A stretch of DNA of 64,000 nt, taken from assembly GCF_003609645.1 (NCBI RefSeq), contig NZ_MCIB01000004.1, positions 1 to 64,000 of the forward strand. Direction: 5' to 3'. The notes under the pieces were generated by a model. It worked only from the letters and a program-made list of their open reading frames with translations. It ran no database searches and was not told the origin of the DNA. Made by a program: the position numbers and the translations under genes. Numbering within the stretch: position 1 is the stretch's first letter; every line of letters begins with the position of its first letter. The DNA is from Thermohalobacter berrensis. Lineage in GTDB: Bacteria > Bacillota > Clostridia > Tissierellales > Thermohalobacteraceae. Below are positions 1 through 13,842 of the stretch, in pieces.

Positions 1-170
1 GGCTTCATTGGTTAAGTAACGGACATCTTAGTCTATCTTCTTTGGTTTAAGTAACGGACGTCGAAGTCTATCTTCTTTGGTTTAAGTAACGGACATCTTA
101 GTCTATCTTCATTGGTTAAGTAACGGACATCCTAGACTCTCTTCTTAGGATAAGTAACAATCCTCATAGG
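1..170. repeat. 34-35 bp tandem repeat array (left end cut by window)
   Basis: Four near-identical units lie head to tail at about 7-40, 41-75, 76-110 and 111-144, with the tail of another at 1-6 and a decayed half unit at 145-170. The shared core on the plus strand is AAGTAACGGACATCTTAGTC followed by TATCTTC. Unit 2 differs at a block (GTCGAAGTC for ATCTTAGTC). There are no unique spacers, so this is not a CRISPR array. The array lies just downstream of the minus-strand structured RNA and may extend further left. Confidence 0.85.
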
Positions 171-184
171 CAATTAGAAAAGAT

Positions 185-611
185 AAAAAAGACAAAAAAA
201 TAAAAGCCGAGAACATAGTGATCTACCTTACACCACCATAGATAGCTTATTACCAAGCCATGATCTTTCGACCATGACCAAGCAGGTCACTACCTATGAT
301 AGTGGTCTGTTCAACCCTGCATGATATCTTAACAGCCCTATACAACCTCTCGGCTGTATAGAACCATTAGTAGAATTAAAAAATTCTACATCGACACCAT
401 ACAGGATCTTAGCTCGACCTTATACGATAGGTTGGGACCCTATTGCAATCAAAATAATCGACTACAATAGAGCCTTTCCCAACCATATAAGATCTTCCCT
501 CCGACTGCATGTGAGCCTTTCGACCTACATGCAATCTTTGGCCGACCCATATATACCCCAAAATAGGAGCATATATGAGTCTGGGCTCAACCACCATGTT
601 CCCGACACTAA
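185..611 (-). ncRNA. candidate large structured non-coding RNA
   Basis: Read on the minus strand, this stretch contains a succession of long helices: a 16-bp stem at 544-581; a GAAA-capped stem at 507-532; a two-tier stem at 419-491 enclosing an 11-bp hairpin (440-470); an 8-bp hairpin at 370-389; a 10-bp stem with a GAGA tetraloop at 338-361; a 6-bp hairpin at 288-304; and a 10-bp stem with a GAAA tetraloop at 256-279. AAGAU recurs at the junctions between stems. An 8-nt segment at 348-355 is perfectly complementary to 205-212, next to a U-rich tract (181-204 on the minus strand) suited to termination. Base composition is less AT-rich than the flanks. Size and layout recall the large ornate bacterial RNAs (GOLLD, ROOL, OLE), but no family could be assigned by eye. 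Confidence 0.65.
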
Positions 612-612
612 T

Positions 613-642
613 ATTATGTGTAGCTATATAAATAATATGCAA
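613..642 (-). promoter_or_regulatory. possible promoter of the structured RNA
   Basis: On the minus strand TTGCAT (637-642) and CATAAT (613-618) are separated by 18 bp, placing a start just before the first helix of the RNA candidate. The -35 is a poor match, the -10 a good one. It is supported mainly by its position. Confidence 0.4.
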
Positions 643-762
643 AAATTTTTAAAATTTATTATCTATTTATATTTAAAAATAATATTCTAAAGTAAGAGTT
701 ATTATTGTATTAAAATTAGTTTTTTCATGGGTTATATAAGTGTATCTACCACTTAATTCAAG

Positions 763-791
763 TTGTAATTAGGGTGAATATATATTATAAT
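763..791 (+). promoter_or_regulatory. sigma-A type promoter for the thioredoxin-like gene
   Basis: TTGTAA (763-768), 17-bp spacer, TATAAT (786-791). It gives a leader of roughly 70 nt before the start at 867. Nothing else is evident in 643-866, which is very AT-rich. Confidence 0.6.
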
Positions 792-866
792 TTAATATAT
801 CATAGAAAAAGAATGTAATTTTTTAGATATTATATTTATTTTAAAATGTTTTATGGGGGTATAAAA

Positions 867-1370
867 ATGGATTCTAGTGCCTTGTATGATACTGGAGTTT
901 CTTTTGATGAGTTTGTAAATAGGGATAATGATACCTATAAAGAAAAAACTTTAGAAATACTTAATAGTATTAACTTTACTGAAGAACAAATAGAGAAAAT
1001 AAAAAGTATAGATAAAAACATAAAGGTTTTAATATGTGGAGAAATATGGTGCCCCGATTGCATGATTAATATACCTGTTGTGGAAAAAATGAGAAAATAT
1101 AATGATAAAATAGAACTTTCCATTGTTCCTAGAGATGGTAATGAAGAATACTTTATTAAATATGCTCCTTGTGAAAAGGTAAAAATACCTACTTTTGTGT
1201 TTTATGATGAAGATTTTAATGAATTAGGTAGTTTTGTAGAGCATCCAAAGAAAATCAAAGATATTGTATCAAATGGAAATCAAGCAAATATTATAGTTGC
1301 TAAAAGAAAATATAAAAAGGGCGAATATGCCCAAGAAACATTAAGGGATATACTTGAAATTCTACTATAG
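867..1370 (+). CDS. thioredoxin-family protein
   Basis: The 167-residue product has a thioredoxin-type redox motif WCPDC at residues 61-65, preceded by a hydrophobic strand (IKVLICGEI) and followed by a helix, then a cis-Pro-like segment KIPTFVFYDEDF. It resembles the cytosolic thioredoxin-like proteins of Firmicutes that probably act in disulfide or peroxide handling; no signal peptide is present, so a cytoplasmic location is inferred. The ATG at 867 was chosen because GGGGGT (855-860) sits 6 nt upstream; an upstream ATG at 846 has no ribosome site. It is a monocistronic unit ended by a terminator that overlaps its stop codon. Substrate unknown. Confidence 0.85.
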   Translation: MDSSALYDTGVSFDEFVNRDNDTYKEKTLEILNSINFTEEQIEKIKSIDKNIKVLICGEIWCPDCMINIPVVEKMRKYNDKIELSIVPRDGNEEYFIKYAPCEKVKIPTFVFYDEDFNELGSFVEHPKKIKDIVSNGNQANIIVAKRKYKKGEYAQETLRDILEILL

Positions 1371-13686: not shown

Positions 13687-13711
13687 ATAGATGAAATTTA
13701 ATAGATAATAA

Positions 13712-13812
13712 AAAACTGGGGAGCTAGGTGCACCTAGCTGAGAGGGAACTGATGCAGTTCCGACCCATAGAACCTGAACTGGGTAATACCAGCGAAGGGA
13801 GAATATTGTGTA
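13712..13812 (+). promoter_or_regulatory. TPP (THI-element) riboswitch
   Basis: The conserved THI-box segments are present in order: GGGGAGC, CTGAGAG, a variable hairpin (GGAACT/AGTTCC), CCGACCC, GAACCTGA, CTGGGTAATACCAGCG and AAGGGA. It binds thiamine pyrophosphate and acts on the terminator at 13843. AACTGGGT at 13777-13784 is complementary to the terminator loop (13858-13865), a plausible antiterminator or contact. Confidence 0.95.
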
Positions 13813-13842
13813 ATCCATTTATTTAGGATTATAGGATATATT

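Follow-up and report, generated by a model that had tools for sequence, protein, structure and literature searches.

A large structured RNA of spore-forming Bacillota with a candidate forespore promoter

The minus strand of Thermohalobacter berrensis DNA encodes a large structured noncoding RNA close to the start of the window, i.e., of the whole 64,000-nt stretch that was analyzed, whose first base is base 1 of contig C4. An undescribed RNA of this kind had been predicted here from the sequence, and the prediction is borne out by 30 covarying pairs, by occurrence in more than 100 genera, by a conserved promoter of its own, and by the lack of a match in Rfam 15. The account that we favor with moderate confidence is that the locus is an independent gene for an RNA of a new family, which is transcribed in the forespore via sigmaF and/or sigmaG and has an architectural role in trans. 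An RNA of ~420 nt that is absent from Rfam although about one in three genomes of its phylum carries it amounts to a large gap in the catalogue. Its probable tie to the forespore provides an entry to the poorly explored question of what noncoding RNA does in the dormant spore, and the regular geometry of nine helices of 15 to 16 bp makes it a ready target for structural work.

Locus, strand, and copies

The minus strand of 185–611 folds with −212.9 kcal/mol, compared with a mean of −114.6 kcal/mol (sd 5.3) for 100 dinucleotide shuffles, none of which is as low (z = −18.4). The plus strand of the same segment reaches only −103.1 kcal/mol (z = −6.4). It folds far worse because many of the pairs are G–U pairs available on one strand only, and this difference identifies the minus strand as the RNA strand. 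The 5′ end of the RNA lies at about 604–606, the closing helix P1 ends at 208, and a U-rich tail—likely the transcript end, as judged by its sequence—extends to about 185. Two further copies in the same genome (C13:356–780 and C32:1759–2173) are 98 to 99% identical and differ in their neighboring genes.

Positions 3–158 of the window are occupied by a 35-nt tandem repeat resembling GTAACGGACATCTTAGTCTATCTTCTTTGGTTAA, which has no spacers and is found at about 97 places genome-wide. The array (1–184) was rejected as a part of the RNA since it consists of this genome-wide repeat and is absent beside the third copy (C32). The 77-residue frame within the RNA, to which the original prediction had assigned no coding function, was rejected as coding as well: any frame is open throughout in only 4 of 65 homologues, and indels occur in the loops.

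Consensus structure and covariation

A closing helix and five arms make up the consensus structure, which comprises nine long helices, two with 15 bp and the others with 16 bp, and, in addition, a small variable arm (Table 1); at least seven long helices had been predicted. Sixty-five sequences were aligned, and 59 nonredundant ones were subjected to an R-scape-like covariation test, namely an APC-corrected G-test against null alignments in which substitutions are redistributed along the tree. With this tree-aware null, 30 pairs are significant at E < 0.05, all of them lie within the RNAalifold consensus structure, and they are spread over P1 and each of the five arms; covariation beyond phylogeny is thus present. 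Double-sided changes occur in 130 of the 149 consensus pairs, and 97.0% of cells are canonical.

Table 1. Features of the RNA and its promoter. Positions are those of the window, except for the phage copies, which are given by locus
Feature	Position	Strand	Description
-35 element	636..642	-	TTGCATA (GNATA type); PWM
-10 element	612..621	-	ACACATAATA (CATNNTA type); 14 nt from -35 block; motif search, PWM
Whole ncRNA	185..606	-	~415-420 nt, transcribed 606 to ~190; fold, copies, consensus structure
P1 5′ strand	589..604	-	16-bp closing helix, pairs with 208-223; covariation columns 15-396, 22-389, 26-385
Linker P1/HP1	582..588	-	GAGCCCA; consensus GAGCCAA; conserved
Arm HP1	544..581	-	16 bp, 566-581 with 544-559; loop varies freely
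Linker HP1/HP2	537..543	-	GGCCAAA; identical in 46/59
Arm HP2	503..536	-	15 bp, 522-536 with 503-517
Linker HP2/HP3	495..502	-	GGAGGGAA; conserved, third base variable (A/C)
Arm HP3	416..494	-	16 bp, 479-494 with 416-431; 4x4 internal loop; 16 bp, 459-474 with 436-451
Linker HP3/HP4	409..415	-	GAGCUAA; conserved
Arm HP4	313..408	-	16 bp, 393-408 with 313-328; three-way point; 16 bp, 352-367 with 332-347
Variable side hairpin in HP4	370..389	-	8 bp here; presence and length differ among species
HP4b cap	348-351	-	GNRA loop GAGA; closes 352-367/332-347 helix
Linker HP4/HP5	305..312	-	GAACAGAC; consensus GAACGAAC or GAGCAAA; conserved
Arm HP5	231..304	-	16 bp, 289-304 with 231-246; 4x4 internal loop; 15 bp, 270-284 with 251-265
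HP5b cap	266-269	-	GNRA loop GAAA; closes 270-284/251-265 helix
P1 3′ strand	208..223	-	U-rich tail next; covariation
U-rich tail after P1	185..207	-	Sequence; likely transcript end
Phage RNA copies	L174 2583-2154; L176 5867-5438	-	Between large terminase and portal genes

The sequence of the helices varies freely, whereas their length hardly does: the strand length of each long helix is identical in at least 53 of the 59 sequences, mostly in 57 to 59. GNRA loops had been predicted; two are present and conserved, HP4b in 88% and HP5b in 90% of the 59 homologues. In each of the remaining three arms, 52 to 57 different loop sequences occur among the 59. The linkers between the arms are conserved, alike, and single stranded, with the general form GRSCNAA in the context GUCG-[GRSC]-NAA-GAU; the AAGAU that the original prediction had placed at several junctions is a conserved part of them. 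Fixed geometry, free sequence, and conserved corners together suggest that the three-dimensional shape of the RNA is under selection. The resemblance of the later arms to HP1–HP2 hints at an internal repetition of the arm–linker unit.

An 8-nt complement between 205–212 and 348–355, from which a switch or pseudoknot had been proposed, does exist in the window but not as a feature of the family: the mean complementary run is 5.88 nt, against 5.84 nt with the partners shuffled among sequences. Since this complement is not conserved and the GAGA-capped stem that it would disrupt has covariation support, the proposal of a switch does not hold. The original prediction did not include the link to spores, the uniformity of the helices in length, or the type of promoter.

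Two homologues (L167 5048–5333 and L168 4859–5137) are shortened: the distal helices of the two-helix arms are lost, and P1, HP1, HP2, and the basal helices are retained. In G462, G332, G357, G703, G725, and further genomes, the model matches the same RNA a second time, weakly, ~160 to 340 nt from the main match, which reflects the resemblance of later arms to HP1–HP2.

Promoter

A two-block de novo motif search in 63 upstream regions, from which the RNA itself was removed, yielded the motif nnGNATA-N14/15-GGnnATAATA with 13.6 bits, compared with 7.5 to 8.2 bits in eight shuffled sets. The spacing is 14 or 15 at 62 of the 63 motif sites. With a matrix built without the window sequence, the promoter of the window RNA scores 12.8 bits and ranks fourth among all sites on both strands of the 64 kb. 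The motif fits a promoter of the forespore sigmaF/sigmaG type and does not fit TTGACA/TATAAT. The sigmaF and sigmaG consensus sequences of Clostridioides difficile resemble each other, sigmaF promoters keeping a G upstream and sigmaG promoters an A downstream of the -10 element (PMC3789822). Both marks are present in the motif of the RNA, which does not distinguish between the two sigma factors; the AT-richness of forespore promoters is a further caveat.

The genes of small acid-soluble spore proteins (SASPs) are classical sigmaG targets and were used as a check, with 32 SASP loci from 25 RNA-positive genomes and that of the window genome itself. The RNA-promoter matrix yields a median of 9.0 bits on the SASP upstream regions, versus 1.3 bits elsewhere in the same loci (p = 8e-10), and the upstream scores exceed those of dinucleotide shuffles as well (p = 1e-9). 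In the SASP gene of the window genome, a site that scores 17.0 bits precedes the SASP domain by about 100 nt. Transcription of the RNA in the forespore is, as judged by these promoter sequences, very probable.

Distribution among genomes

A DNA search in 249 genomes of the order retrieved relatives at 65 to 78% identity in several families, some of them in tandem. A scan of named genome contigs with a 15-nt pattern gave 115 matches, most of them by chance but five of them true homologues, all five in metagenome-assembled genomes labeled Bacillota, Clostridiaceae, Clostridiales, or Gracilibacteraceae. Covariance models spanning two of the nine helices were used in addition. R1, which models the first two arms, has matches in 43 of the 391 genomes searched in the class and in 110 of the 399 searched in the phylum. 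A broader model (R2) matches 141 of the same 399 (about a third), in 101 of 268 genera.

The sporulation protein SpoIIIAE is present in 331 of the 399 genomes, among them 138 of the 141 RNA-positive ones (lists compared by hand), and the RNA is absent from 65 of the 68 SpoIIIAE-negative genomes. This co-occurrence corresponds to a Fisher p of 1.5e-10, in which the shared ancestry of the genomes is ignored. The remaining three RNA-positive genomes all have SASP genes, and two of them are only 84% complete; hence, every RNA-positive genome bears a spore marker, either SpoIIIAE or SASP (141/141). About 58% of the SpoIIIAE-positive genomes have no RNA match, because of either loss or divergence beyond the two-helix model, which indicates that the RNA is dispensable for sporulation in general. 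In some genomes, tandem and dispersed copies suggest that the dose of the RNA matters. L160 (5410–6885) carries three and L161 (4370–5350) two head-to-tail copies, in units of about 490 nt, each with its own promoter.

Comparison with known RNAs

At gathering threshold, no family of Rfam 15—GOLLD, ROOL, OLE, raiA, HEARO, and 6S included—matches the RNA in the window or in 18 homologous loci. Seven homologous loci searched at E up to 0.5 left the RNA unmatched as well, and a permissive search of window positions 1–900 gave only mir-3202, mir-103, and LOOT, far under threshold. The LOOT RNA (RF03000) matches one hairpin pair locally with 21.1 bits and E = 0.15, which is chance level given a gathering threshold of 46.4. 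These searches support the RNA as a family uncatalogued in Rfam 15. It matches no known family or described system and falls loosely into the existing category of large noncoding RNAs of unknown function. A search of the published open-access literature found no described forespore structured RNA in Clostridia.

GOLLD and ROOL are much larger than the ~420-nt RNA, and we know of no spore link for either. Like the RNA, they are large, multihelical, and found in phages too; their Rfam models do not match it. Both form RNA-only particles, and OLE forms homo-oligomers (PMC12286853). With ~600 nt (PMC12054373), OLE is, like the RNA, a large structured noncoding RNA of anaerobic or extremophilic Bacillota, but the two differ in sequence and structure, and the OLE model has no match to the RNA. 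The raiA motif, or ModT, is a structured noncoding RNA widespread in Bacillota including Clostridia (PMC11706538); it is a separate family, the model of which does not match the RNA.

The role of the RNA and its alternatives

The architectural role is rather likely and is based on the fixed helix lengths and the location of conservation. SigmaF and/or sigmaG RNA polymerase would transcribe the gene within the forespore. Selection may then preserve a defined rigid three-dimensional shape, as is suggested—less firmly than the site of transcription—by the combination of fixed helix lengths, free helix and loop sequences, and conserved junctions and tetraloops. Tetraloop contacts would make the folded RNA a compact particle, be it on its own, as part of an oligomer, or together with a spore protein, and the function of the RNA in the spore would be that of a scaffold or structural element. 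To our knowledge, a structural RNA of the endospore would have no counterpart. That the equal-length 16-bp helices and GNRA docking build an ordered RNA-only or RNA–protein particle within the spore is a doubtful but possible extension of this model.

CsfG is shorter than 200 nt and is described from Bacillus-type spore-formers; we know of no multiarm architecture for it. It is a forespore noncoding RNA of Bacillus subtilis under the control of sigmaF/sigmaG with a function that is unknown (PMC9147052). As judged by its promoter motif, the RNA would share this compartment. The RNA could hence be a forespore regulatory sRNA, similar to a large CsfG, that pairs with mRNAs or another RNA via its linkers, which are single stranded and conserved. 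However, these are only 7 to 8 nt long and mutually alike, the hairpin loops that are exposed show free variation in sequence, and an sRNA that acts by pairing has no need for nine fixed-length helices, which makes this role unlikely. The GGAGGG linker, a possible mimic of a ribosome-binding site, was rejected as such because about one homologue in three has GGCGGG instead.

Large ribozymes and riboswitches, too, have GNRA caps and junction residues that are unpaired and conserved, and the multiarm junction might accordingly harbor a catalytic or ligand-binding core. Yet there is no cis-regulated gene, no known core motif, and no Rfam match, and ~70% of the molecule consists of long helices of free sequence. 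A ribozyme or ligand-sensing RNA is therefore improbable.

That the RNA belongs to a selfish or mobile element, be it retron-like, phage-borne, or a spreading repeat, has a similarly small probability. Two to three near-identical copies per genome, tandem copies, and differing neighbors would be expected of such an element. Moreover, the RNA is present in full length (nhmmer E = 6e-69) in one prophage, which is represented in IMG/VR by two near-identical records, between the terminase and portal genes. On the other hand, no linked protein and no terminal repeats are found, the structure is conserved phylum-wide and confined to spore-formers, and the phage copy, too, has a forespore-like promoter (10.6 bits), in addition to an intrinsic terminator. 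A phage origin of the RNA was rejected since the IMG/VR scans yield this one phage only. The portal gene next to the RNA copy looks split by a frameshift.

The trans-acting nature of the RNA gene in the favored account is suggested by its neighborhood. No family of Pfam, NCBIfam, or PHROGs recurs among 113 neighboring proteins, and the downstream gene lies on the same strand as the RNA in only 19 of 56 loci; together, these make a role in cis unlikely and point to an autonomous RNA. A cis-acting leader, i.e., a riboswitch or attenuator, would call for a recurrent same-strand downstream gene, and none is seen; in the window, the RNA strand continues with just the repeat array and the contig end. 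In favor of a leader is G002 (L166 4677–5029, minus strand), in which the RNA copy is truncated at the contig end and its 3′ end is followed after about 35 nt by a same-strand SASP gene; this gene has a plausible ribosome site and lacks an obvious promoter of its own. This is the single SASP gene inside the fetched RNA flanks, and the adjacency fits forespore expression of the RNA; the leader reading is very improbable. A DNA-level palindromic repeat (cruciform) without RNA function would agree with the several copies in the window's genome, but is hardly credible given the G–U pairs that form on one strand only, the far worse fold of the other strand, the fixed length of helices that vary freely in sequence, and the promoter ahead of the RNA in 62 of 63 cases.

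Elsewhere in the window, the plus strand carries an ordinary TPP riboswitch at 13707–13817 (Rfam RF00059, 73.4 bits).
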